Shown here: piece after piece, positions 2,992-25,888 of the stretch
How the letters are laid out: each line of letters opens with the position of its first letter
Position numbering within the stretch: the first letter of the stretch is position 1
Origin: Methanofervidicoccus abyssi
Lineage (GTDB): Archaea > AGJL01 > Methanococci > Methanococcales > Methanococcaceae
Direction of reading: 5' to 3'
Assembly (NCBI RefSeq): GCF_004310395.1
Contig: NZ_BFAX01000002.1
Span: forward strand, 62,001 to 126,000
DNA length: 64,000 bases
The notes under the pieces: generated by a model
The model's database searches: none
The model's input: only the letters and a program-made list of their open reading frames with translations
Told to the model about the DNA's origin: nothing
Made by a program: the position numbers and the translations under genes

Positions 2992-4608
2992 CTATACTAA
3001 CTCCTCTACAGGAATTAACTCACTGTACTCTACAACCCCATGAAGGGCTGAAACTTCTACTGGTATACCCCTACTTTTAAGTATAGCGAAGGGATTCATA
3101 CCTCCAAAACATATATATCCAAACATATTTTTTTCAACTTTAACCCCACATACGTCGTTATTAGGTTTTCCTACCTTGTATATACCTTTCCAATTTAGAT
3201 ATTTCACTATCTCTATTAACTTCTCCCGACCAACCATTGGGGCTTTTCTAACACCTGATAATACTGTATTTTCACCATCTACCCTGTTAAGAAATATCTC
3301 ATGGGGATCTAAGGATGTACCATCATAGGAGATGATCTCTATAAACCTATCCTTCGAGAGTTCCAATATACCTCCGCAATATGGAATCACGGGAATACCG
3401 TGTTTTATAAGTATTCCATCCACTGTAGAAGAACATATAGTGGACATTATTAATCTATCTCCCCTATGTTCAAAACCCACCCTGTCAGATACCATAATCC
3501 CCATCTTATAACATCTATCAAGCGCTTCTAACACTTCATCTTCATACTTCCTATTTATACAACACCTATTTACTAAAACCTTACCCTTTCTATCTTCTAT
3601 ACTGTAATCCACCTTATGTACCATAGAAAGCATCTTGGAGAACACTGATACTATCTTAACTTTCCCCTTCTTCTTCACAGGCTTTAAATGTTTTTTACTT
3701 ACCGTTTTTACATTGGAAATATCTATAATATCACTTGCTGCACTGATCTTAACTGGATATCCCATTTCCACTAAGGGACATATGGGAGACAACCCCCCCA
3801 CAAGGGCTATCCCTACCTCACCATCGTTTAAACTTAACCCTAATACATTCTCCTCCCCATAACTGAGTATCCCATTGAGTTTATCCTCTTTTATAATGTT
3901 TTCAAATCTATCTAAGGTTGTCTTTGGAATAATCCTGAAGTTTGCAGGTAGGTGTCCTTCTCCATTCTCTATAATCCCCATTACATCTGTCTTTCCCCTT
4001 GTTATAAATGCTTCTAAGGGATCTATAGATGACTTACTGAAATCTATAACCCCCTCAAATGCCACAGGCTCGTAGTCTTCGAATTTAACTATTCCTCCAT
4101 ATTTTATTATAGGATATATCCCTTCCTTCATAAGATAGTTATCGAAGGTTATGGAACATAGGGTTTCAACTGTGATAGAACTCTTATTTCTCCTGATATT
4201 TATAAAATCACCTATGGAGAAACCATTATCTACAACTTTCAACACTAACTCCTTAACCTCCGAGTAATTTCCCTCAATTACAGTCCTGTTGATTATAACA
4301 CTCCTTGGGAAGTCTGACAAGTATATCTTCTCCAACATCTTGGAAAATACAAATCCTACTCTATAAGATATATTTGCCTTATTTAGCTCTTCTAATCCTT
4401 TCTCCGTTATAACTCTACCATAGTATCCTATCTTTTCAGTTAGATTTCTTTCATCTAATAGTTGAAGGTGATACCTAACAGCCCTTTCTCCTAACTCATA
4501 ACCTCGTTTCTTAAGTTCATTTGCTATTATCTTAGCACCTACAGGCCTATCGTACTGGGCTAAGATATTCAGAATCTCTATAAGTTTATCATCTAAATTG
4601 TTTTCCAA
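2992..4608 (-). CDS. nrpR: NrpR, transcriptional repressor of nitrogen assimilation genes
   Basis: NrpR represses nif and glnA promoters in Methanococcales and is released by 2-oxoglutarate. The protein (538 residues from the start chosen here) has an N-terminal winged helix (about residues 5-70, with ILNILAQYDRPVGAKIIA and RAVRYHLQLL) followed by two tandem NrpR effector domains (about 75-310 and 325-538), each with the repeated SSTVDGILIKHG-type and GGI-type patterns. Start choice: the longest frame begins at an ATG at 4641 that overlaps a TATA-like TTTATATA, whereas a TTG at 4608 is preceded by GGTGGT with a 3-base spacer, which matches other starts here. I saw no GGAA-N6-TTCC operator in its short upstream region. 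It is transcribed alone. Confidence 0.93.
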   Translation of the reverse strand: MENNLDDKLIEILNILAQYDRPVGAKIIANELKKRGYELGERAVRYHLQLLDERNLTEKIGYYGRVITEKGLEELNKANISYRVGFVFSKMLEKIYLSDFPRSVIINRTVIEGNYSEVKELVLKVVDNGFSIGDFINIRRNKSSITVETLCSITFDNYLMKEGIYPIIKYGGIVKFEDYEPVAFEGVIDFSKSSIDPLEAFITRGKTDVMGIIENGEGHLPANFRIIPKTTLDRFENIIKEDKLNGILSYGEENVLGLSLNDGEVGIALVGGLSPICPLVEMGYPVKISAASDIIDISNVKTVSKKHLKPVKKKGKVKIVSVFSKMLSMVHKVDYSIEDRKGKVLVNRCCINRKYEDEVLEALDRCYKMGIMVSDRVGFEHRGDRLIMSTICSSTVDGILIKHGIPVIPYCGGILELSKDRFIEIISYDGTSLDPHEIFLNRVDGENTVLSGVRKAPMVGREKLIEIVKYLNWKGIYKVGKPNNDVCGVKVEKNMFGYICFGGMNPFAILKSRGIPVEVSALHGVVEYSELIPVEELV

Positions 4609-4717
4609 GCTACCACCGTTGTAATTTTGATATATAAACAAAAAAATGTAAATTAAATTATTAATTAAATTATTATTTGATATAAAAATTAAAAAAAGTA
4701 ATAAAAATACCTTACAT

Positions 4718-4743
4718 ACATTTTATCTAGACATTTTATCTAG
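4718..4743. repeat. 13 bp perfect tandem duplication at the 3' end of the FIST gene
   Basis: ACATTTTATCTAG occurs twice head to tail. The second unit contains the stop region of the FIST-domain gene, so the duplication lies exactly at its C-terminus and first downstream bases. Confidence 0.85.
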
Positions 4744-5974
4744 AGATTATTTCGTTACTAAGTAGCAAGACAGTAGAAGTTTGATTATAGTGACCTATAG
4801 ATCCTCCTAAAGTGCTTCCCTGCTCTCCATAGGTGTTAAATCCAATTACTGGAACTTCACCTACTAACTCTTTTATTATCTTGAGATCGTTTATTCCCTC
4901 TTTTTCAGTAAGTAAATATCTCAATATACAGTTAAATATAATAATTGCACCTATCTCTTCTGGATTTCCTGCATCCTGTATAGCATTAAGTATAGTTTTC
5001 TTAAAAGATTCGACGATATGTTCTTTGTCAGTATCCATGATAGTTAGATAACACCCTTTAGGCACTTCAGAGTAAAAGGTTATACTACCATCTGGATTTA
5101 CATTTGCAGGACTTTTTATAATATACTCCCCATAAACATCTGAAGATTTAACACCTATAGGTGTCTGGGAAAATACTTCAGGGGTCAGTTCATCTACTCC
5201 AAGTAATTCCCTCATAACTTCAGAAGCAGGTCTATCATCTAATTCATAAACTACCCTCCCATTGGACTTGGTAACAACAGCACCTGCATCTGTGGGGTAG
5301 AAAGGATGGCCGTATCCAGTACCTATCTTTAGAGCACTACTCAAGGTAGCCACTACACCAGCATCCGTATATACACCGTTTCCAAACTGATAGGTTCTTT
5401 TAAACTTTAAGTCATCACCAGTGGATCCACCTATGATACAGTGGTTATATCCAACAGCTGATAATATTCCCTTTATAAATTCTTCTTCAACCCTTGCCAA
5501 ACCATCTGGAATAATGATATTAATAAAAGGTTTCATCTTCAAAAGATCTAAACCCTTTTTCTTCATAAAGGCGATGGATATTACTGCAGATGCTGTAGGA
5601 TTATCCTTTAAAGAGGCATAAGCTTTACTAATTGCCTCTCTTCCACATTCGAAGGGATTCTTAGATATCCCCTCACTTACACCAACACCAACTTTAAGGT
5701 AAGGACTTTTCAGTGTTATCACCGCTACAGTACCTTTCTGTGGTTTCTCAACTATACTGGAGAACTCCCCTGCAGTAGTTCCTCCTATGATATGAGAATC
5801 TTCAACTTTTTCTTTTATTTCCCTGTAAACCCAGTTAGGATCTAAGTCAGAGGATGCAAATACTATGGTTAAATCAGGTTTTCTACAACCCTCTAGAGCT
5901 TCTTCAATAGCTTCGGTAGGATCTGTGGATTGACCTATTCCAACTTCCAGTATTTTTCTTCTATCTGTTATCAT
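4736..5974 (-). CDS. FIST-domain (FIST_N plus FIST_C) sensory protein
   Basis: FIST proteins are predicted small-ligand-binding sensory modules, often fused to signalling outputs in bacteria; here the domain stands alone (412 residues). The N-terminal FIST domain is marked by DLTIVFASSDLD and HIIGGTTAGEF (about residues 35-90) and the IIPDGLARVEEEFIKGI and CIIGGSTGDD segments (about 155-195); the C-terminal FIST_C part includes IGFNTYGEQG (about 375-384). No transmembrane segment or kinase, cyclase or methyl-accepting domain is attached, so any output partner must be separate. The longest frame begins with TTG at 5980; the ATG at 5974 is the more economical start. Monocistronic by spacing. 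Confidence 0.85.
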   Translation of the reverse strand: MITDRRKILEVGIGQSTDPTEAIEEALEGCRKPDLTIVFASSDLDPNWVYREIKEKVEDSHIIGGTTAGEFSSIVEKPQKGTVAVITLKSPYLKVGVGVSEGISKNPFECGREAISKAYASLKDNPTASAVISIAFMKKKGLDLLKMKPFINIIIPDGLARVEEEFIKGILSAVGYNHCIIGGSTGDDLKFKRTYQFGNGVYTDAGVVATLSSALKIGTGYGHPFYPTDAGAVVTKSNGRVVYELDDRPASEVMRELLGVDELTPEVFSQTPIGVKSSDVYGEYIIKSPANVNPDGSITFYSEVPKGCYLTIMDTDKEHIVESFKKTILNAIQDAGNPEEIGAIIIFNCILRYLLTEKEGINDLKIIKELVGEVPVIGFNTYGEQGSTLGGSIGHYNQTSTVLLLSNEIISR

Positions 5975-16126: not shown

Positions 16127-17167
16127 TTATAATCTTTTAAATCCATCCTTCTTTATAAGATACATATCCTCTATTCTAACTCCAAAATCTTCCAGGTATA
16201 TACCTGGTTCAACAGTTATCACCATATTTTTCTTCAAGATTAAGTTCTTCTCTGCTTTTGAACTTATAGAAGGCTCTTCGTGGACATTTACACCTACACC
16301 ATGTCCCAATGAGTGTATAAAGTATTTCTTATACTCCCCCATAGATTCTCTTGCCAACCTGTCCAACTCCCTTACTGAAGTGCCCTCTCTAAGGTGGTCC
16401 TCCACCTCTTCCTTTACATCACTGACTAACTGATGGATCTCCCTGTATCTTCTATCTTCCTTCAGTAGTATCGTCCTTGTAATATCTGAACAGTACCCCC
16501 TATAAACTGCTCCAATATCTATCAACACTATATTTTTAACAACGTCTTCAGAAGGCATACCATGAGGGAGTGTTGTTTTTCTATCTGATAGTACTATAGA
16601 GTCAAAGGCAGGTTTTATACTACCCATCTTCTTCATCATATACTCTATCTCTCCTGCCAACTCCATCTCTGTAATACCTTCCTTACTTAGACAGTCTATT
16701 CCATATTCTAGCGCCCTTTTACTAATCTTAGATGCTCTTTTGATAAACTCTATCTCTCTCTCTGTTTTTATACTCCTCATCTCCATCAACTTCCTAGATA
16801 CTATCTTGTAGTCTTCAGGGAGATACTTGATGTACCTTAGTGGAAATGTCTCCTCAACACCATCACATCCTTTAATTACATCCTTTACACTTTTCATTAA
16901 GGAAATTTCTATCTTTCCATGTAATCCCTGGAAACTTCTATATTCTAACTTTGAAAGATGAAGTACAGTGCGTTCATTTTCTACATCGAAGGTTAGAAGG
17001 GAGTTGTGAGGTGGATACCTCTCTAAGAAGTAGTTTATATTTTCCCTACTTAACAGTATGCATCTCTTTATACCCTTCTCCTCTAAATACTCTAGAAAAG
17101 TTTTTATCTTATCCACAGTCTCACCAAAAAACCTATTAATAAGTGTATTTAACATTACAAACTTCAA
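16127..17167 (-). CDS. Xaa-Pro dipeptidase/aminopeptidase (M24 metallopeptidase)
   Basis: The 346-residue protein has an N-terminal creatinase/prolidase-type domain (about residues 15-125) and a C-terminal pita-bread domain with the five metal-ligand motifs: the two aspartates in DIGAVYRGYCSDITRT (about 218-233), the histidine in HSLGHGVGVNVHEEP (about 282-296), and the glutamates in VEPGIY and RIEDMYL (about 317-336). This pattern indicates cleavage of X-Pro bonds in the cytosol. The start is uncertain: TTG 17167 or ATG 17155, neither with a strong Shine-Dalgarno. Its 3' end faces the intergenic repeat. Confidence 0.9.
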   Translation of the reverse strand: MKFVMLNTLINRFFGETVDKIKTFLEYLEEKGIKRCILLSRENINYFLERYPPHNSLLTFDVENERTVLHLSKLEYRSFQGLHGKIEISLMKSVKDVIKGCDGVEETFPLRYIKYLPEDYKIVSRKLMEMRSIKTEREIEFIKRASKISKRALEYGIDCLSKEGITEMELAGEIEYMMKKMGSIKPAFDSIVLSDRKTTLPHGMPSEDVVKNIVLIDIGAVYRGYCSDITRTILLKEDRRYREIHQLVSDVKEEVEDHLREGTSVRELDRLARESMGEYKKYFIHSLGHGVGVNVHEEPSISSKAEKNLILKKNMVITVEPGIYLEDFGVRIEDMYLIKKDGFKRL

Positions 17168-17373
17168 TATTCATCAATAAATAAAAATTTTATATTTAAA
17201 ATGATTGCTAACAATAAATGCTAAAGATGCAAATATTAAAAAATATATACGGTAAATTTAATTCTTAGATATTTTGGCTCAATATCTCTAAGATCTGCTG
17301 AAATATGGATAAGTTAATTCTCGGAATAAGGATTGATTATTCTATCCTACATTTGTTAGATAAACTTAAGAAT

Positions 17374-17388
17374 GGAAAGATTTAAATA
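17374..17388 (+). promoter_or_regulatory. BRE/TATA promoter for the structured RNA
   Basis: GGAAAGA followed by TTTAAATA (17381-17388) has the layout of an archaeal BRE/TATA promoter. The expected transcription start falls on 17411, exactly where the GC-rich RNA begins. Confidence 0.65.
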
Positions 17389-17410
17389 CCGACTACTTAA
17401 ACAATATTTA

Positions 17411-17530
17411 AGGGACGTTCCCTAATAGAGATAAGGTTTGTATGTTAATTGGGATAAGGGAGTTGTGAATCCCCTACTCCTATCCATGAGGCCGAAATCG
17501 TAAAAAAGTCGGCTGAACGGAGGGAACTTT
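17411..17530 (+). ncRNA. Structured RNA of unknown family upstream of rps8e
   Basis: A GC-rich island in AT-rich DNA that folds well by eye. Pairings seen: a 5' hairpin AGGGA-CGT-TCCCT (17411-17423); an alternative long-range stem in which GTTCCCT (17417-17423) pairs with AGGGAAC (17521-17527); a hairpin of GGATA/TATCC plus GGAGT/ACTCC (17452-17485); and a hairpin GCCGA/TCGGC (17491-17513) flanked by ATGAG and TGAAC, an internal loop that could form a kink-turn. The first two pairings exclude each other. It may be an independent small RNA or a switch-like leader of rps8e. It is not a tRNA, SRP RNA or RNase P RNA; I cannot place it in a family. Confidence 0.6.
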
Positions 17531-17618
17531 ACTAACTGTTTTAGAGTAAGGTATTCATAAATAAAATTAAGATTATTGTCCAAAACAATAACACAGAGAG
17601 TATTGAATTGGTGATACG

Positions 17619-18002
17619 ATGGGAGTATGGCAGGGTAGAAGCAGAAGAAAACCTTCAGGAGGTAAGTACAAGTTAGTTGTTAAGAAACGTAAAAGAGAAA
17701 TGGGAAGAGAACCTACAGAAACTCTCTTAACAGATGAAGTTAGAATAAAAATGATAAGAACGAGAGGAGGGAATAGAAAAGTAAGACTACTGAGAACAAA
17801 CTACGCCAATGTAATGGACCCTAAAAAAGGTATCTGTAAGAAGGTAGCAATATTGAATGTAGTGGAAAACGAGGCCAACAGACACTATATCAGAAGAAAT
17901 ATCATTACAAAGGGAGCAATTATTGAAACTGAAATTGGTAAAGCAAAGGTTACTTCAAGACCTGGGCAGGATGGTGTAGTTAATGCAGTTCTAATAGAGT
18001 AA
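17619..18002 (+). CDS. rps8e: 30S ribosomal protein S8e (eS8)
   Basis: eS8 is an archaeal/eukaryotic small-subunit protein. The 127-residue archaeal form has the basic N-terminus [13 protein letters not shown] (about residues 6-18), the [13 protein letters not shown] block (about 49-61) and ends [15 protein letters not shown] follows GGTGAT with a 3-base spacer. It is monocistronic; the upstream structured RNA could be part of its leader if transcription reads through. Confidence 0.95.
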
Positions 18003-18583
18003 TTTATCTCTTTTTTATGAGATAACTAAGATTCTACTATTTTAAAATGAAGGGATTGGAAATCCTTTAAAAATCTCTTTTTTTCTTCTTACTAAGAAAT
18101 ATTGAGTCTATTTTAGGTTTAACCATGAAATTTTGATTAATTGTTGTAACTCTAGTTCCCATCAAAGTAGATTATAACCATAAAATTAAATAATAATTAA
18201 GGGTATTTTCCCTGTTTAGAATTTTATTATTTATTATACATATTGTAGTTCTAAATTAGCAATAATAGCTAGAGAATACCTTCCTCCAACGTATACTCTT
18301 AATAATTTGGAAAAGTATGAAGAAGCAATAAAATACTATGATAAAGCGAGTATGAAAAGAGAATAATGAATACAACATTTGGTCAGGGTCTATGAGCCTG
18401 TGGTGATAGGAGAAATTTTTCGCTGGTTTAATAAAAATAGGGGAGATTATTATTTGTTAGAGAGATTGCCAGGGCAAGATAAAATAATATTAAAAAATAA
18501 AAATAAATAAAAAATATAATTAAAATTATTTTAAAATAAAAAATAATAAAAATCGTTAAATAAAATCAAAGGGTGTTGAATAT
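18003..18583. other. Gap at the left edge of the propeller-kinase island
   Basis: This 581 bp stretch holds a TPR-gene remnant (18259-18366) and a second short open stretch from GTG 18400 (36 codons, protein VVIGEIFRWFNKN... with no relative I recognise). The remaining sequence is AT-rich spacer and probably the promoter of the kinase gene. Confidence 0.5.
18259..18366 (+). pseudogene. Fragment of a TPR-repeat protein gene
   Basis: A 35-codon stretch ending in TAA encodes NLEKYEEAIKYYDKAS, a typical tetratricopeptide helix pair with the family's Tyr/Ala/Ala pattern. No start codon with Shine-Dalgarno precedes it. The downstream paralog (21933) has an intact TPR at its N-terminus (YNQGRYKEAIECFDKSL), so this is likely a leftover of a related N-terminal module or gene. 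Confidence 0.5.
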
Positions 18584-21500
18584 ATGTTTTCCAATATCCT
18601 TAGGATCTTTAAAAAGAATAAGCAGGCTGAGGCTGAAAGATCTATAGAGGATGCTAAATCAATAATCTCACAGATAAAATCAAAGTATAACATTAAAGAG
18701 GCTGAATCCCTACTTTCCCTACTATCTCAGGCTGAGGAGGCATTTAATAAGGGAGATTACCTTAAAGCAAAGGAACTTGCTTTAGAGGCTAAGGAGAAAG
18801 CCATTAGTGTGATAGATTATTTCACATTGTGGAAGTATGAGACAGGTGGCCCTGTTACTTCAGTATCAATAACTTCTGATGGGAATTATATAGTTGCAGG
18901 GAGTGGGCATTATGTTTATCTCCTCAACAAAGAAGGGAGGTTATTGTGGAAGTATGAGACAGGTGGCCCTGTTACTTCAGTATCAATAACTCCTGATGGG
19001 AATTATATAGTTGCAGGGAGTGGGCATTATGTTTATCTCCTCAACAAAGAAGGGAGGTTATTGTGGATGTATACGACAGGTCGTGATGTTAAATCAGTAT
19101 CAATAACTCCTGATGGGAATTATATAGTTGCAGGGAGTGGGTATTATGTCTATCTCCTCAACAAAGAAGGGAGGTTATTGTGGATGTATGCGACACGTGG
19201 TGCTGTTCATTCAGTATCAATAACTCCTGATGGGAATTATATAGTTGCAGGGAGTGAGGATGATAATGTCTATCTCCTCAACAGAGAAGGATGGTTATTG
19301 TGGATGTATACGACAGGTCGTGATGTTAAATCAGTATCAATAACTCCTGATGGAGAGTATATAGTGGCAGGTAGTTGGGATGAGAATGTCTATCTCTTCA
19401 ACAAAGAAGGGAGGTTATTGTGGAAATATGAGACAGGTAGTATTGTTTGGTCAGTATCAATAACTCCTGATGGGAATTATATAGTTGCAGGGAATGGTTT
19501 TATTTTGGGTGGTGGTAATGTTTATCTCCTCAACAAAGAAGGGAGGTTATTGTGGAAGTATGAGACAGGTGGCCCTGTTACTTCAGTATCAATAACTCCT
19601 GATGGGAATTATATAGTTGCAGGGAGTAAGGATGATAATGTCTATCTCTTTGCTTCATTAGAAGTAATACCGAAAATAATAGAAAAAATAATAGAAAATA
19701 CCAAGAAAATAATCTCACAGATAAAATCAAAGTATAACATTAAAGAGGCTGAATCCCTACTTTCCCTACTATCTCAGGCTGAGGAGGCATTTAATAAGGG
19801 AGATTACCTTAAAGCAAAGGAACTTGCTTTAAATGCTAAAGAAAGAGCAATAGAAATAAATAATCATGCTGAGGCTGAAAGATCTATAGAGGATGCTAAA
19901 TCAATAATCTCACAGATAAAATCAAAGTATAACATTAAAGAGGCTGAGGATATTCTATCTCAGGCTGAGGAGGCATTTAATAAGGGAGATTACCTTAAAG
20001 CAAAGGAACTTGCTTTAAATGCTAAAGAAAGAGCAATAGAAATAAATAAGCAGGCTGAAGAATTAGAAAAAATAATAAAAAAACTTAACTCAAAAGTAGA
20101 ACTAATCTCCGACTTAGATAAACTACTGGAATCTGCAAAAAAAGAATTCAAAGAAGGAAACTACGAGAATGTTTCACAGTACTTAAATAAATGTGATGAA
20201 TTAATTAATAACGCAAAACCAAAATTAAAAATCAAACTTCTAAATACTTCATTCACTTACAATAAATGGGATAAAGTTAAGATGGAAATAATAAATGAAG
20301 GAAATGCCATAGCAAAGAACATAATATTTGAATTCTCAGAGGATGTTACCGTAAGAAATCTGCCAGAAATTGAAGTTAAACTAAAGAATAAAAAGATAGT
20401 AGAATTCCATCTCAAGCCCAATGTTTTGGGAGAGGTTCCTCTCGAGATTAAAGTAAAATGTAAAGATCACTTAAACAGAGAGTACGAATTCAAGGAAACA
20501 ATAACACTTGAAGTTAAGGAAATAACTGGAGAAATAACTCCAACTCCAGAAACCCCAGAAAAAGGAATATCTCCAGCAGAATTCACTCCAAAGCCAACAA
20601 CTCCAAAAACATTCCCCCCAGAACTTTCAGATAGATATATAGAAGTAGAGTTCATAGGAAAGGGAGGATTTGCAAGGGTATTCAAGGCAAAACGTAAAGA
20701 TGGAAAAGAAGTTGCAGTTAAAATACCAATCTCATTAGACGAATCCACTGGAAAATCCTTCCTCAAAGAAATAGAGAATTGGACTAAGTTAAACCACAAC
20801 AACATTGTAAAGATCTACGACTACAACATCCTCCCAATTCCCTACTTTGAAATGGAGTTATGTGATAAATCATTGGCAGATCTAAAGAAACCCTTAGATC
20901 CAGAGAGGGCAGCATGGATTATATTCAATACAGCAGAGGGATTAAAATACGCCCATTCTCAAAAAATCATACATCGAGATTTAAAGCCTCAAAACATCCT
21001 ACTTAAGGAGGGAGTTCCAAAGATCAGTGATTGGGGATTGAGTAAGGTTGTGGCAGATTCCTCCTCGGCAACTACAACTAAGGCATTCACACCCTACTAT
21101 GCCTCTCCAGAACAGATAAATGGTAAAAGTACAGACAATAGAACAGATATATGGCAATTAGGAGTAATATTCTATGAACTTGTTACTGGAGAACTCCCAT
21201 TTAAGGGCGATACCCTTGTTGAAATAGGAATGGCTATAGTCACAAAGGACCCAACTCCACCTTCAAAAATCAATCCAGAGGCAAAGGAAGTTGAAAAAAT
21301 AATAATGAAATGTTTAGAAAAAGATAAAAAAGAGCGTTATCAATCTGTTATAGATCTACAAAGGGATTTAGCTGAATATCTTGGAATTAAATACAAAGAA
21401 TCCTTAAAGTTAAGTGTAAGTAGAAAGGACTTCAAGAGATCAGTCTACTACTGTTGCGAACTTCTTCTATTAAATATGAAGATTAACAACATGATAGAAG

Positions 21501-21673
21501 CCTACAAATATGCCTCAGATCTACTGAATTATACCAGTGGTGAAGTTAAACAGGAAGTTCAAGAATTATGCGGGGGTTTAAAGTTCAGAATAGAAAATGG
21601 AATAAATACTGTCCCAGAGGAGCTTATCAAAAAGGCTGAGGTCATGGTCCATAAAATAAGGATGGGATTCTGA
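18584..21673 (+). CDS. Ser/Thr protein kinase with seven-repeat beta-propeller and helical modules
   Basis: A 1029-residue multidomain signalling protein, apparently cytosolic (no signal peptide or membrane span). Order: helical hairpin module about residues 8-78 (IISQIKSKYNIKEAE ... AFNKGDYLKAKELAL); seven propeller repeats of about 39 residues, 80-357 (each with SVSITPDGNYIVAGS, VYLLNKEGRLLW); two more helical modules, 360-490; a coiled helical stretch to about 545; a beta-sandwich (CARDB/Ig-like) about 548-645; a Pro/Thr-rich linker about 646-682; and a Hanks-type kinase about 684-935. Catalytic residues are complete: Gly loop GKGGFARV (692-699), Lys713, alpha-C Glu729, HRDLKPQN (797-804), Asp816 in DWG (Trp replaces the usual Phe), and SPE in the activation segment. 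A helical tail follows. ATG start after GGGTGTT. The repeats are near-identical in DNA, which indicates recent amplification or gene conversion. Substrate unknown. Confidence 0.88.
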   Translation: MFSNILRIFKKNKQAEAERSIEDAKSIISQIKSKYNIKEAESLLSLLSQAEEAFNKGDYLKAKELALEAKEKAISVIDYFTLWKYETGGPVTSVSITSDGNYIVAGSGHYVYLLNKEGRLLWKYETGGPVTSVSITPDGNYIVAGSGHYVYLLNKEGRLLWMYTTGRDVKSVSITPDGNYIVAGSGYYVYLLNKEGRLLWMYATRGAVHSVSITPDGNYIVAGSEDDNVYLLNREGWLLWMYTTGRDVKSVSITPDGEYIVAGSWDENVYLFNKEGRLLWKYETGSIVWSVSITPDGNYIVAGNGFILGGGNVYLLNKEGRLLWKYETGGPVTSVSITPDGNYIVAGSKDDNVYLFASLEVIPKIIEKIIENTKKIISQIKSKYNIKEAESLLSLLSQAEEAFNKGDYLKAKELALNAKERAIEINNHAEAERSIEDAKSIISQIKSKYNIKEAEDILSQAEEAFNKGDYLKAKELALNAKERAIEINKQAEELEKIIKKLNSKVELISDLDKLLESAKKEFKEGNYENVSQYLNKCDELINNAKPKLKIKLLNTSFTYNKWDKVKMEIINEGNAIAKNIIFEFSEDVTVRNLPEIEVKLKNKKIVEFHLKPNVLGEVPLEIKVKCKDHLNREYEFKETITLEVKEITGEITPTPETPEKGISPAEFTPKPTTPKTFPPELSDRYIEVEFIGKGGFARVFKAKRKDGKEVAVKIPISLDESTGKSFLKEIENWTKLNHNNIVKIYDYNILPIPYFEMELCDKSLADLKKPLDPERAAWIIFNTAEGLKYAHSQKIIHRDLKPQNILLKEGVPKISDWGLSKVVADSSSATTTKAFTPYYASPEQINGKSTDNRTDIWQLGVIFYELVTGELPFKGDTLVEIGMAIVTKDPTPPSKINPEAKEVEKIIMKCLEKDKKERYQSVIDLQRDLAEYLGIKYKESLKLSVSRKDFKRSVYYCCELLLLNMKINNMIEAYKYASDLLNYTSGEVKQEVQELCGGLKFRIENGINTVPEELIKKAEVMVHKIRMGF
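18832..19660 (+). repeat. Seven near-identical propeller-encoding repeats (about 117 bp each)
   Basis: Inside the kinase gene, a unit of about 117 bp containing TCAATAACTCCTGATGGGAA and GGGAGGTTATTGTGG recurs seven times with few changes, many of them shared with the downstream paralog's repeats. These are coding propeller blades, not a CRISPR array. Confidence 0.9.
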
Positions 21674-21932
21674 GGGAGTGGATGTATGGAGTATCTTTTA
21701 CATTCAAAGGGGAGGTAAAATCCTATATCTTGCTTTAACCTTTAGATGGTATTACTCTTTTATTATTTGGGTCTTTCTTTGTAAATTTTAGATGAGGAAT
21801 TATCAAAGAATTATTAATGGAGATTTAAATGGATAAATTAAAGAATATAACTAAGTAAAGATAAATTTAAATAAAATAGAAAATAATTTTAAAATAAAAG
21901 AATAAAAAATATAATTAAAGGGTGATGAATAT

Positions 21933-23588
21933 ATGTCTTCCAATATACTCAGGACCTCTAAAAAGAAAATTGATGGTAAAACAGATGAAGAATGGTTCAA
22001 TGAAGGAGTTGCCCTCTACAATCAGGGAAGATATAAAGAGGCAATAGAATGCTTTGATAAATCTCTGGCTATAAAGGAAGATCCTAAGGTAAGAAAGATT
22101 AGGGAGAAGGCTATAGAAATAAATAAGCAGGCTGAGGAGGCTGAGAGATCTATAGAAAGTGCTAAATCAATAATCTCACAGATAAAATCAAAGTATATCA
22201 TTAAAGATGCTAAGGATATTCTATCTCAGGCTGAGGAGGCATTTAATAAGGGAGATTACCTCAAAGCAAAGAAACTTGCTTTAGAGGCTAAGGAGAAAGC
22301 CATTAGTGTAATAGATTATTTCACATTGTGGAAGTATAAGACAAGTGATGATGTTCTTTCAGTATCAATAACTCCTGATGGGAATTATATAGTTGCGGGG
22401 AGTAAGGATAATAATGTTTACCTCTTCAACAGAGAAGGGAGGTTATTGTGGAAATATGAGACAGGAGATCATGTTTATTCAGTATCAATAACTCCTGATG
22501 GGAATTATGTAGTTGCGGGGAGTAAGGATAATAATGTTTACCTCTTCAACAGAGAAGGGAGGTTATTGTGGAAGTATAAGACAGGTGGTAATGTTTATTC
22601 AGTATCAATAACTTCTGATGGGAATTATATAGTTGCGGGGAGTAAGGATAATGTTGTTCATTCAGTATTAATAACTCCTGATGGGAATTATATAGTTGTA
22701 GGTAGTATGAATATAGCAGGTAGTAAGAATAAGAATGTTTACCTCTTCAACAGAAAAGGGAGGTTATTGTGGAAGTATTATACAGATAGTGATGTTGAAT
22801 CAGTATCAATAACTCCTGATGGGAATTATGTAGTTGCGGGGTGGGGGTATAATATTTACTTCTTCAACAGAGAAGGGAAGTTATTGTGGAAGTATAAGAC
22901 ACGTGGTGCTGTTGAATCAGTATCAATAACTCCTGATGGGAATTATGTAGTTGCGGGGAGTGGGTATTGTGTTTACCTCTTCAACAAAGAAGGGAGGTTA
23001 TTGTGGAAGTATAATACAGGTAGTGTTGTTCCTTCAGTATCAATAACTCCTGATGGGAATTATATAGTTGCAGGTCGTTGGGGTGGTAATGTTTACCTCT
23101 TCAACAGAGAAGGGAAGTTATTGTGGAAGTATAAGACAGGTGGTCGGGTTTATTCAGTATCAATAACTCCTGATGGGAATTATATAGTTGCAGGTAGTTG
23201 GGATAAGAATGTTTATCTCTTCAACAAAGAAGGGAGGTTATTGTGGAAGTATTATACAGGTAGTGATGTTGAATCAGTATCAATAACTCCTGATGGGAAT
23301 TATATAGTTGCGGGGAGTGATTATATTTGGAGTGGTAATGTTTATCTCTTTGCTTCATTACAAGGAATACAAAAAATAATAGAAAATACCAAGAAAATAA
23401 TCTCACAGATAAAATCAAAGTATAACATTAAAGAGGCTGAATCTCTACTTTCCCTACTATCTCAGGCTGAGGAGGCATTTAATAAGGGAGATTACCTCAA
23501 AGCAAAGAAACTTGCTTTAGAGGCTAAAGAAAGAGCAATAGAAATAAATAAGCAGGTTGAAGAATTAGAAAACTTAATCCAAAAGTAG
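21933..23588 (+). CDS. Kinase-less beta-propeller/TPR paralog, truncated at its 3' end
   Basis: A 551-residue tandem relative of the upstream kinase. Domains: a TPR at about residues 15-55, a helical module about 65-125, a propeller about 130-475 with nine SVSITPDGNY-type starts (the third repeat is cut short after AGSKDN and runs straight into the fourth, and the second Ser of the fourth start is Leu), and a last helical module about 478-545. The frame ends at a TAG created by a small deletion; beyond it the sequence still matches the kinase gene's helical and beta-sandwich parts but in broken frames (23589-23954). So the present protein is a cut-down version of a formerly longer one. ATG start after GGGTGATGAATAT, nearly the same leader as the kinase gene. 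It may still be made as a scaffold or decoy, or be an expressed pseudogene. Confidence 0.75.
   Translation: MSSNILRTSKKKIDGKTDEEWFNEGVALYNQGRYKEAIECFDKSLAIKEDPKVRKIREKAIEINKQAEEAERSIESAKSIISQIKSKYIIKDAKDILSQAEEAFNKGDYLKAKKLALEAKEKAISVIDYFTLWKYKTSDDVLSVSITPDGNYIVAGSKDNNVYLFNREGRLLWKYETGDHVYSVSITPDGNYVVAGSKDNNVYLFNREGRLLWKYKTGGNVYSVSITSDGNYIVAGSKDNVVHSVLITPDGNYIVVGSMNIAGSKNKNVYLFNRKGRLLWKYYTDSDVESVSITPDGNYVVAGWGYNIYFFNREGKLLWKYKTRGAVESVSITPDGNYVVAGSGYCVYLFNKEGRLLWKYNTGSVVPSVSITPDGNYIVAGRWGGNVYLFNREGKLLWKYKTGGRVYSVSITPDGNYIVAGSWDKNVYLFNKEGRLLWKYYTGSDVESVSITPDGNYIVAGSDYIWSGNVYLFASLQGIQKIIENTKKIISQIKSKYNIKEAESLLSLLSQAEEAFNKGDYLKAKKLALEAKERAIEINKQVEELENLIQK
22320..23350 (+). repeat. Propeller-encoding repeat array of the paralog
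   Basis: Nine starts of the same unit as in the kinase gene (most about 117 bp), eight of them essentially full length. The join between repeats three and four (about 22640-22690) looks like an internal deletion within one unit, the expected product of unequal recombination between identical repeats. Confidence 0.85.
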
Positions 23589-23954
23589 AACTAATCTCTG
23601 ACTTAGATAAACTACTGGAATCTGCAAAAAAAGAATTCAAAGAAGGAAACTACGAGAATGTTTCACAGTACTTAAATAAATGTAAGGAATTAATTAATAA
23701 CGCAAAAAATAAATGAAGGAAATGCCATAGCAAAGAACATAATATTTGAATTCTCAGAGGATGTTACCGTAAGAAATCTGCCAGAAATTGAAGTTAAACT
23801 AAAGAATAAAAAGATAGTAGAATTCTATCTCAAGCCCAATGTTCTGGGAGAGGTTCCTCTCGAGATTAAAGTAAAATGTAAAGACCACTTAAACAGAGAG
23901 TACGAATTCAAGGAAACAATAATACTTGAAGTTAAGGAAATATTTATGGTTTAA
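23589..23954 (+). pseudogene. Decayed helical/beta-sandwich remnant of the paralog
   Basis: This stretch is almost identical to 20098-20520 of the kinase gene but lacks an intact frame. A deletion relative to GAATTAGAAAAAATAATAAA in the kinase gene brings a TAG into frame; a second deletion of roughly 80 bp after AACGCAAAA removes the start of the beta-sandwich and gives a TGA (AATAAATGA). After that the reading frame continues through DVTVRNLPEIEVKL and KCKDHLNREYEF to a TAA at 23952-23954. Reference residues and order are the same as in the intact copy. Confidence 0.85.
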
Positions 23955-24010
23955 CTTAATCCAATTCTCTATTTCTTTAAGGAAGGATTTTCCTGTGGAT
24001 TCATCTAATT
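23948..24010 (-). pseudogene. Inverted fragment of the kinase domain
   Basis: Read on the reverse strand, this 63-base piece matches 20734-20795 of the kinase gene (the LDESTGKSFLKEIENWTKLN region that carries the alpha-C glutamate) with only a handful of mismatches. It abuts the decayed forward remnant, so the paralog once had a kinase domain that was lost through an inversion with deletion. It lies just 25 bases from the carB2 stop codon. Confidence 0.85.
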
Positions 24011-24034
24011 AGCGAAGATGGAGAGAACAGACTC

Positions 24035-25888
24035 CTATTCTCTATCTTCTTCAACCTCTATTTTTTCTATACTACATTCTATCTCATCTAAGGAATAAAC
24101 TCCAATACTTCCATCCTTAACAGATTTTATAGCCTCAATAGCTGAAAGTGCTCCTCTTATAGTGGTTATATATGGTATATTGAATTCTACTGCAGCTCTC
24201 CTTATGTAGTATCCCTCAGATTTAGCCTTGCCTCCAGAAGCTGTATTTATAATTAGATCTATCTCTCTTTTCTGGATCAACTGAAGTATATTAGCTGTAG
24301 AACCCTCAGATATTTTCTTAACCACCTTTACCTCTATCCCTTCCCTTCTAATTACCTCTGCAGTGCCTCTAGTAGCCGCTATGTTGAAGCCTAACTCCTT
24401 AAATTTCCTGGCAATATGTGGTGCATACTTTTTATCCTTATCCTTTAAACTGATGAACACAGTGCCAGAAATTGGGAGTTTCATATTTGCTGAGAGTTGT
24501 GCTTTGTAATACGCTTTACCAAAATCTACATCTATTCCTATTGCCTCTCCAGTGGATTTCATCTCTGGGCCTAAGACAGGATCCACTCCAGGTAACTTCT
24601 GGAAGGGAAAGACCGCTTCCTTTACACTTACATACTTACTCCTTACAAAGCCTACATATCCCATACTCCTTAATTTCTCTCCCATTATAACTCTTGTGGC
24701 GATTTTAGCCAGAGGTATTCCTATGGATTTACTTACATAAGGTATAGTTCTACTTGCCCTCGGGTTGGCCTCCAACACATAGACGGTATCATCCTTAATA
24801 GCAAATTGGATATTTATCAGTCCAATTACTCCCAACCCCTTACTTATCTTTACAGTATACTTTACTATCTTCTTTATAATATCCTCTGAGAGGTTCTGAG
24901 GTGGTAGAACACAGGCACTGTCTCCACTGTGCACCCCTGCCTCTTCTATATGTTCCATTATACCTCCTATAAATACATCTTCCCCATCACATACAGCATC
25001 CACATCTACCTCTATAGCATCCTCTAAGAACTTGTCTATCAGTATGGGATGTTCAGGAGATACCTTAACCGCTTCTCTTATGTAGTCTCTCAATCCCTCC
25101 TCACTATACACAATCTCCATAGCTCTACCTCCCAATACATAGGAAGGTCTGACAAGGACGGGGTAACCTATCCTTCTTGCAACTTCTATAGCCTCCTTCT
25201 CGTTATATACTGTAGCACCCTCTGGTTGTGGTATTCCCAATCTCTTTAAAAATTTCGAGAACTCCTCCCTGTCCTCAGCTAGATGGATGGATTCAGGAGA
25301 TGTACCCAGTATCTTCACATCTGTTTTACGGTACAACTCCATAGCGAGGTTTATGGCAGTCTGCCCTCCAAATTGCACTATAATACCTAAGAGGTTTCCA
25401 TCCCTATTCTCATTTTCAATAACGTTCATTACCTCTTCAAATGTTAAGGGTTCAAAGTAGAGTTTATCTGAGGTATCGTAATCTGTGGAGACTGTCTCAG
25501 GGTTGTTGTTTATTATTATAGCCTCAATCCCCATCTCCTTCAGTGCCCATACTGCATGAACTGTGGAGTAGTCAAACTCTACTCCCTGTCCTATTCTGAT
25601 AGGCCCTGAACCTAAGATTATTACCTTCTCCTTCTTTGATGGAATACTTTCGTTCTGTTCCTCGTAGAATAACTGTTCATAACAGGAGTAGAAGTAAGGA
25701 GTTTTAGCCTCAAACTCTGCTGCACAGGTATCTACCATCTTATATACAGGGAGAATGTTTAGTTCCTTTCTTAATTCTCTGATCTCCATTTCATCTTTCT
25801 TCAGGAGATGGGCTATCTGTTTATCTGAAAAACCTAACATTTTACACTCTAAAAGTATCTCCTTAAGTGAATCTTTATCTATACCCAT
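24035..25888 (-). CDS. carB2: Carbamoyl-phosphate synthase large subunit, C-terminal part
   Basis: CarB2 (617 residues) carries the second ATP-grasp unit, which phosphorylates carbamate, and the MGS-like allosteric domain. A helical oligomerisation segment (about 1-75) precedes ILGSGPIRIGQGVEFDYS (about 90-107), the grasp motifs VRPSYVLGGRAMEIV (about 245-259) and EANPRASRTIP (about 375-385), and the MGS domain (about 480-610, with ATRGTAEVIRREG and TASGGKAKSEGYYIRR). Together with CarB1 it equals one bacterial CarB; the split is known from Methanocaldococcus jannaschii and relatives. ATG with GGTGAT and a 3-base spacer; 18 bases downstream of carB1, so co-transcribed. Confidence 0.95.
   Translation of the reverse strand: MGIDKDSLKEILLECKMLGFSDKQIAHLLKKDEMEIRELRKELNILPVYKMVDTCAAEFEAKTPYFYSCYEQLFYEEQNESIPSKKEKVIILGSGPIRIGQGVEFDYSTVHAVWALKEMGIEAIIINNNPETVSTDYDTSDKLYFEPLTFEEVMNVIENENRDGNLLGIIVQFGGQTAINLAMELYRKTDVKILGTSPESIHLAEDREEFSKFLKRLGIPQPEGATVYNEKEAIEVARRIGYPVLVRPSYVLGGRAMEIVYSEEGLRDYIREAVKVSPEHPILIDKFLEDAIEVDVDAVCDGEDVFIGGIMEHIEEAGVHSGDSACVLPPQNLSEDIIKKIVKYTVKISKGLGVIGLINIQFAIKDDTVYVLEANPRASRTIPYVSKSIGIPLAKIATRVIMGEKLRSMGYVGFVRSKYVSVKEAVFPFQKLPGVDPVLGPEMKSTGEAIGIDVDFGKAYYKAQLSANMKLPISGTVFISLKDKDKKYAPHIARKFKELGFNIAATRGTAEVIRREGIEVKVVKKISEGSTANILQLIQKREIDLIINTASGGKAKSEGYYIRRAAVEFNIPYITTIRGALSAIEAIKSVKDGSIGVYSLDEIECSIEKIEVEEDRE

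Follow-up and report, generated by a model that had tools for sequence, protein, structure and literature searches.

Among the closest described systems, the HNWD/NWD family of the fungus Podospora anserina (HET-D, HET-E and HET-R) has WD units that evolve in concert within and between genes, broken copies included (Paoletti 2007, PMC1805685; Chevanne 2010, PMC2873952; Dyrka 2014, PMC4986451). In these repeats, positive selection was reported at codons 7, 9, 25 and 27, which flank the conserved positions 8 and 26 (Paoletti 2007). Kinase and propeller parts also occur in bacterial conflict systems, according to Kaur 2020 (PMC7159879). Here, we describe two neighboring propeller genes, A and B, of the archaeon Methanofervidicoccus abyssi, which lie in a 64,000-nucleotide stretch of DNA (hereafter, the window; assembly GCF_004310395.1, contig NZ_BFAX01000002.1, positions 62,001 to 126,000), together with a third gene, C, on another contig of the same 1.31-Mb genome (5 contigs, 99.67% complete). 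The three genes probably encode archaeal receptor-like signalling proteins, whose propeller evolves like that of HNWD with the loops selected on one face. The homogenisation of the repeat units reported in the initial annotation of the window is confirmed; the third locus, the one-face pattern and the horizontal origin are additions to it.

Layout and homogenisation of genes A and B

Genes A and B contain the following parts, where positions count from the first letter of the window.

18584..21673, plus strand: gene A, an open reading frame of 1029 amino acids (Pfam Pkinase 7e-51, WD40 4e-33), with a structure model
18662..18805, plus strand: helical module A1
18818..19657, plus strand: propeller of gene A, seven units starting at 18818, 18935, 19052, 19169, 19289, 19409 and 19541
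19709..19852, plus strand: helical module A2
19904..20038, plus strand: helical module A3
20225..20521, plus strand: Ig/CARDB-like beta sandwich of gene A, residues 548-646, strands present in the model
20639..21343, plus strand: Ser/Thr kinase domain of gene A (Pfam PF00069), residues 686-920, 173.5 bits
21933..23588, plus strand: gene B, an open reading frame (Pfam WD40 3e-43), with a structure model
22170..22304, plus strand: helical module B1
22317..23348, plus strand: propeller units of gene B, eight 'LWKY' starts and one internal partial unit
22557..22757, plus strand: fused third/fourth unit of gene B, one full unit and a half unit
23397..23540, plus strand: helical module B2

The units were compared over aligned 39-codon cores, where pS and pN denote synonymous and nonsynonymous difference, respectively. 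The propeller units, described in the initial annotation as about 117 bp long and homogenised at the DNA level within and between the two genes, are indeed so: the seven units of gene A measure 117-120 bp, with one of 132, and the pS is 0.138 within A (21 pairs), 0.105 within B (36 pairs) and 0.18 between A and B. The pairwise comparison proposed there thus yielded low, not high, synonymous divergence. Nucleotide identity over the cores is 78-95% among the units of A, 76-91% among those of B and 76-89% when A is compared with B; the wording "almost identical" is therefore apt for the framework codons, but the variable loops depart from it. The helical modules, three in A and two in B, are near-identical as claimed (87-97% identity, pS 0.06-0.29, pN 0.02-0.09), but they measure 135-144 bp and not about 150 bp. 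The longest exact tract within A, of 124 bp, lies between helical modules, and another of 110 bp is shared by the propeller stretches starting at 18912 and 19518.

As a comparison, the within-gene unit pS is 0.53-0.58 in same-genus propellers of the same family (genomes and genes G005, G008C65 and G010) and 0.68 in a fourth same-genus control (G008C78), and it is 0.48 among units 1-3 of gene C, whereas the values within and between A, B and units 4-7 of C are 0.10-0.19. The uniformity of A and B exceeds that of some other concerted genes, whose within-gene pS is 0.25 (G004b and G007C48), 0.28 (G006C38) and 0.30 (all of C). The controls G005, G008C65 and G010 keep position orthology, with a pN of 0.12-0.13 at the same position vs. 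0.24-0.26 at different positions, and 18 of their 24 units are closest to the unit that occupies the equivalent position in another genome. Of 82 units in the genes A, B and C and those of G004, G006C38 and G007, 76 have their nearest neighbor within their own genome, a count made without the units B_3 and B_4; therefore, these genes evolve in concert.

Gene A runs from a helical module through a seven-blade propeller, two helical modules, the beta sandwich and the kinase to C-terminal helices. Its model contains 28 strands, that is, seven four-stranded blades, with a predicted local distance difference test score (pLDDT) of 83-97 up to residue 300 and 72-90 in the last blades. The name of the beta sandwich is our interpretation of the model strands, and no Ig/CARDB match was present among the best 25 of 34 Pfam families. 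The kinase is of the Hanks type, with 173.5 bits against the Pkinase cut-off of 31.7 and an HRDLKPxN catalytic loop, read as IIHRDLKPQNIL; the model is of poor quality in the kinase (pLDDT below 50 across 714-851), a part that was left out of the analysis. The kinase-less gene B consists of a TPR part, a helical module, an eight-blade propeller with one half unit and a helical module. Its model has a pLDDT of 85.7 overall and 90-97 across most of the propeller, and its 34 strands correspond to eight blades and two extra strands. The extra strands come from the third/fourth unit, noticed earlier as fused or shortened and found to be real, where the confidence is low (pLDDT 64 at residues 261-270). 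Both propellers are of the WD40/PQQ type, with closure of the ring suggested by the strand order and by Foldseek matches.

Exchange with gene C and variation on one face

Gene C (L063:4906-7821, minus strand) lies on contig C4, whereas A and B lie on C2, and encodes a propeller, two PEGA domains and a kinase. The kinases of A and C are saturated (45% amino acid identity, pS 0.76). In contrast, blades 4-7 of C differ from the blades of A by a pS of 0.15, and blades 1-3 by 0.39; the likeness of blades 4-7 despite the saturated kinases indicates exchange between the loci. Relative to the other-genus relative G012, the pS is 0.18 for Vps4, 0.20 for the coiled-coil protein, 0.12 for the membrane protein, 0.11 for the second kinase, 0.27 for PP2C and 0.42 for the kinase of C, while it reaches 0.64-0.68 in the propeller, which indicates that the C propeller turns over far faster than its surroundings. 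Most simply, the C propeller would have been overwritten with A-type blades.

Four of the seven tested units of B and five of seven in G004c have their nearest neighbor in a different gene of their own genome; for five of the seven units of A and for all eight in both G004b and G007C115, it lies within the gene itself. In a run-length test of recombination, which left out edge and partial units and so covered 13 of the 21 units of the window genome and 16 of the 23 in G004a and G004c together, the runs of identity between units exceed those in column-shuffled data (p<=0.004 and p<=0.023, respectively). The units are mosaics of loop variants: among 171 pairs in the window genome, the DNA of loop 1 is identical and that of loop 2 different in 4, with the reverse in 2, and among 253 pairs in G004a and G004c the corresponding counts are 12 and 11 (B_3 and B_4 were omitted from the pairs). 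The counts for loop 1 and loop 2 are 0 and 3 of 28 in the control G005, 0 and 0 in G010, and 1 and 0 in G008C65. The mosaic loop variants support the recombination within and between genes that was proposed at first and that may be ongoing, and the likeness of the blades reaches even a third locus on another contig.

The earlier proposal that recombination varies both blade number and surface is supported for the surface, which varies on one face, more than for blade number as the main varied trait. Among the 12 other full arrays scored, the unit number is 7 or 8 in 10, 16 in another and 6 in the last. The unit table may miss degenerate blades, so that the 6 units in G007C99 are a lower bound, and the partial arrays L060, L078, L079 and L081 were not counted as full. 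The array of 16 homogenised units, double the usual eight, belongs to a homologous kinase (L064:3130-7011, G004a). Surface variation is far clearer than variation in blade number.

The strongest variation among the units falls in two codon clusters, many of whose codons are NNT. The selected HNWD codons map to columns 12, 14, 30 and 32 here, flanking V13 and D31, where the offset of plus 5 is our interpretation of the motif spacing. The pN/pS of these four codons is 2.66 [1.75-5.88] in the 21 window-genome units, with a framework value of 0.30; it is 2.17 [1.05-13.2] in A alone (framework 0.40) and 3.32 [1.97-15.5] in B alone (framework 0.42 [0.18-0.99]). By pN, the four columns take the first four places of 35 both in the 21 units and in B; in A, they are among the first six. 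For a set of nine loop columns, picked after inspection of the data, the minimum numbers of changes are 52 nonsynonymous and 4 synonymous, vs. 23 and 14 elsewhere (Fisher p=0.0004). The nine-column pN/pS is above 1 in the window genome, in G004a (1.79 [1.21-2.92]) and in G006C38 (2.00 [1.33-4.58]), but not in the G007 genes, and the four-codon value in G006C38 is 1.61 [1.01-5.05]; G004b and G008C78 were omitted from these comparisons. The window genome thus shows clear selection, whereas the signal is modest or absent in the other genomes.

As read from the strand tables of the models, columns 8-12 span the end of strand d and the d-a loop, column 14 is at the start of strand a, and columns 30-32 are in the b-c turn; in unit B_2, the strands span residues 171-176, 181-186, 192-197 and 201-206. 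It is established for WD40 propellers, and also stated in PMC1805685, that the d-a and b-c loops share the top face. The diversification of the surface expected from the initial annotation is thus found on one propeller face, with a loop pN/pS above 1 in the window genome.

Horizontal history and gene neighborhoods

The features around genes A and B are as follows.

18025..24044, no strand assigned: 6.0-kb block with genes A and B, between rps8e and carB
18292..18348, plus strand: scrap of TPR-like coding sequence ahead of gene A, matching the TPR part of a relative (L056) with 74% identity across 19 residues
23543..23942, plus strand: remnant of a gene-A-like helical/Ig-like part, mostly past the stop of B, frameshifted and with a deletion
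23944..24012, minus strand: inverted 69-bp scrap of a gene-A-like kinase, 91.3% blastn identity to 20731-20799 reversed, with a tblastn match

The block with A and B has a horizontal history. When window positions 17001-25000 were compared with L085 and L095 by blastn, the matches stopped at 18024 and restarted at 24045. The stretch behind rps8e is variable: it holds the 6-kb block here, while in G004, a close relative, about 0.28 kb separates the ends matched in rps8e and carB (a near-empty site), in G001 an aminotransferase-like gene follows rps8e (named by interpretation of its translation), and in G007 a relative of gene A lies about 3.4 kb from rps8e. The pS of carB and rps8e is 0.39 and 0.40 relative to G004 and 0.77 and 0.59 relative to G002. 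The gene-A kinase has a pS of 0.106 relative to G002, the closest of the eight relatives' kinases compared, on a contig that begins inside the gene, and of 0.59 relative to G004a. Because the affinities of the kinase reverse those of carB and rps8e, the block was exchanged with the G002/G006/G007 group; it was most likely received from that group. The block may have been inserted, or kept, between rps8e and carB. Viral carriage of gene A was considered and rejected, as one scan of viral contigs gave no relative.

The remnant behind gene B matches gene A with 89.3% identity over 178 columns and 97.9% over 239 bp (blastn). Since this remnant and the inverted kinase scrap lie behind gene B, B is interpreted as a truncated paralog and would be a truncated variant and a possible donor of units. 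Members of the gene-A family were named in Methanothermococcus single cells, in a metagenome-assembled genome (MAG) of M. okinawensis and in a Thermococcus MAG; the words "kinase" and "beta-propeller" are absent from the main text of the single-cell genomes paper (PMC8417812). The Thermococcus relative (L059) has 35% best-segment identity, and 57% in the kinase, which extends the family beyond methanogens. Four places in the window genome score above the Pkinase cut-off, and the three long kinases are A, C and the second kinase of the C locus.

The C locus contains a Vps4-type ATPase (AAA and Vps4_C matched), a second kinase, a PP2C, a DUF4013 membrane protein and a coiled-coil protein in the position of ESCRT-III, a component of the endosomal sorting complex required for transport (ESCRT). 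Pfam Snf7 matched neither this protein nor the genome, so that naming it ESCRT-III is a guess from position. The Vps4 genes of this locus (L063:1499-9880, G000:C4) and of the G012 locus (L116:1140-10329) differ by a pS of 0.18, vs. 0.74 relative to the own close relative G004; this membrane-remodelling Vps4/kinase/PP2C locus seems, from such comparisons, to have been traded between genera. The propeller gene of the G012 locus is broken into two overlapping frames (L116:3916-4545 and 4475-5485), apparently by a frameshift. In the window, A and B are flanked by rps8e and carB, and not by ESCRT genes. In both G004 and G007, a kinase gene and a gene for a PP2C-like protein are neighbors of one for a propeller protein that likely has a membrane segment; Pfam covered the propeller and kinase of G004, and the other names are our interpretation. 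The kinase beside the propeller gene in G004 (L076:2804-5272) matches the MIT domain weakly, with a value of 2e-4 that is below the cut-off, and this might connect it to ESCRT-III.

Proposed mechanism, alternatives and comparison with known systems

In the proposed mechanism, the WD40/PQQ-type propeller of A, B and C would sense a putative ligand, and in A and C the Ser/Thr kinase of the same chain would send the signal. The propeller is read as the sensor, and the kinase as the presumed output, because kinases and phosphatases occur in archaeal ESCRT loci, as Makarova 2024 (PMC10936438) describes, and because propeller, kinase and PP2C genes are neighbors in G004 and G007. Recombination among blades of the same or of different genes, by gene conversion or unequal exchange, would keep the blade framework near-identical in DNA, and this framework would stay competent for further exchange. 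Selection would favor changes on one face, at a few codons of the d-a and b-c loops, whose variants recombination would reassort into new combinations. The varied face would be the ligand-binding face, and the ligand a changing partner such as a virus, a mobile element or a competing cell.

Low divergence among units could also result from recent amplification only, in which each propeller was copied from one blade and diverged without continued exchange between genes. Such amplification is found in all major propeller lineages, Euryarchaeota included, according to Pereira and Lupas (PMC9218822), and the own-gene nearest neighbors (five of seven in A, all eight in G004b and in G007C115) agree with it. 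The account is nonetheless improbable, as gene C has three diverged blades beside four A-like ones (pS 0.15) despite the saturated kinases, four of seven tested units of B and five of seven of G004c are nearest to another gene of the same genome, and loop variants were reassorted between units. Constraint on codon usage or on the DNA itself would likewise lower the pS, and the sequence seems AT-rich by impression, with variable codons that often end in T; this cause was rejected and has very little probability, since the same-genus, same-family blades (pS 0.53-0.58) and blades 1-3 of C in the same genome (0.48) contradict it. A targeted mutator that writes the loop codons, e.g., a diversity-generating retroelement, would explain why variation is confined to two short codon clusters with many NNT codons. 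It is highly unlikely, however, because RVT_1 has no match in the nearly complete window genome while 3 of 14 control genomes match, because all 13 genome matches of a two-unit DNA query fall within A, B and C and reveal no separate template copy, and because the loop pS of 0.20 is near the framework pS of 0.15-0.17, so that the mutation rate is not visibly raised locally.

The propeller kinases might instead be cargo adaptors of the archaeal ESCRT (Vps4) machinery, whose loop diversity tracks changing cargo or vesicle partners. Gene C adjoins the Vps4-type AAA ATPase, the coiled-coil protein in ESCRT-III position, the second kinase and PP2C; Makarova 2024 describes such loci as containing membrane-bound kinases that carry Ig-like repeats and, at the C-terminus, a PCI-like domain, and regards propeller or Ig-like domains as likely cargo binders in adaptin-type systems; and the propeller operon of a relative includes the kinase with the weak MIT match. 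This role is possible but rather doubtful, as A and B adjoin rps8e and carB, Snf7 matches neither the coiled-coil protein nor the genome, and the MIT match is below the cut-off. Finally, gene B, kinase-less and followed by frameshifted and inverted scraps, could be a decaying pseudogene and the loops of A could be under relaxed selection. We consider this quite unlikely, because the propeller frame of B is open and well modelled, and because relaxation alone would not yield both a framework pN/pS of 0.42 [0.18-0.99] in B and loops that exceed 1.

Several observations weigh against homogenisation by exchange together with selection on one face. Across 239 bp of flanking sequence, A and B are 97.9% identical, so that the likeness of A and B could partly reflect a recent duplication, and near-identical repeats may be imperfectly assembled, as relatives' contigs begin inside these genes (e.g., G002:C17:1 and G014:C55:16). 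Sharing of loop 2 also occurs in 3 of 28 pairs of the control G005. Columns 12, 14, 30 and 32 rank 1-4 in the unhomogenised G008C78 as well, and the ranking by position alone is therefore no evidence of selection. The four-codon set is independent in origin, coming from Paoletti 2007, but the variable columns were already known, so that the test was not blind, and the pN/pS bootstraps over units ignore shared ancestry. The four-codon pN/pS is 1.00, 1.18 and 0.70 in three G007 genes, 0.64 in G004c and 1.33 [0.84-2.52] in G004a, and among the unhomogenised controls (0.61, 1.17 and 0.76) one exceeds 1.

Regarding the known systems, the nearly identical blades recall WRAP, the highly repetitive bacterial WD40 propellers such as PDB 2ymu. 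This structure is the second sequence match for the A propeller (7.5e-75) and the first Foldseek match for the B model by E-value (1.4e-26), but with a template modelling (TM) score of 0.26 and a root-mean-square deviation of 16. Unlike the genes here, WRAP is described as continual amplification from one blade, and the main text of PMC9218822 does not contain the words "gene conversion" or "positive selection". PkwA of Thermomonospora (WD40 match 5e-14) and AfsK of Streptomyces (model match 4e-29) also join a Ser/Thr kinase to a propeller; however, the curated AfsK cut-off is missed (101.9 vs. 1300 bits), and gene A differs from both by its Ig-like domain and helical modules. With the archaeal "main clade" of ESCRT-locus membrane kinases, gene C shares the Vps4 locus, the second kinase and PP2C, and gene A shares the Ig-like domain, the kinase and the C-terminal helices, although A is not beside ESCRT genes. 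The antiphage kinase PD-T4-6/MAD6 was rejected as a counterpart (MADS6 129 bits vs. a cut-off of 460); the PADLOC matches listed cover the kinase domain only.

The likeness to HNWD extends to single codons. In the fungal repeats (PMC1805685), the selected codons form two pairs, 7/9 and 25/27, each around a conserved residue, with 18 positions from one such residue to the other; the pairs here are 12/14 and 30/32, and they fall in the d-a loop and the b-c turn. Unlike HNWD, the output here is a Ser/Thr kinase and not a NACHT/STAND ATPase with a HET domain, the host is an archaeon, and most arrays have 7-8 units, whereas 10 or more are given there as the lower limit for incompatibility activity. 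As no NACHT or HET match is present among the best 25 of 34 Pfam families, these genes are HNWD-like in evolution but not members of the family. What looks novel is that these traits are combined in an archaeal kinase, that another locus takes part in the exchange and that the loop codons are shared; an archaeal case is absent among the literature matches listed, which are mainly titles and abstract starts and cover few subscription papers.

A uniform scaffold with varied loops, as in fungal self/non-self receptors, suggests by analogy a fast-changing recognition system. Going further, thermophilic methanogens might hold a horizontally traded receptor-kinase repertoire with a shared pool of blades that selection diversifies on one face and that are shuffled between loci, kinase-less unit donors like B and a kinase/PP2C route to ESCRT-type remodelling, which would amount to innate recognition (antiviral or for allorecognition) without NLRs (nucleotide-binding leucine-rich repeat receptors), convergent on the loop codons of fungal HNWD; we regard this as a long shot. 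The fungal non-self signature of homogenisation, exchange between loci and one-face selection is found here with a kinase in place of a STAND ATPase, and at homologous codons. Should strains confirm it, shuffled propellers would represent a general strategy of recognition that does not depend on NLRs.

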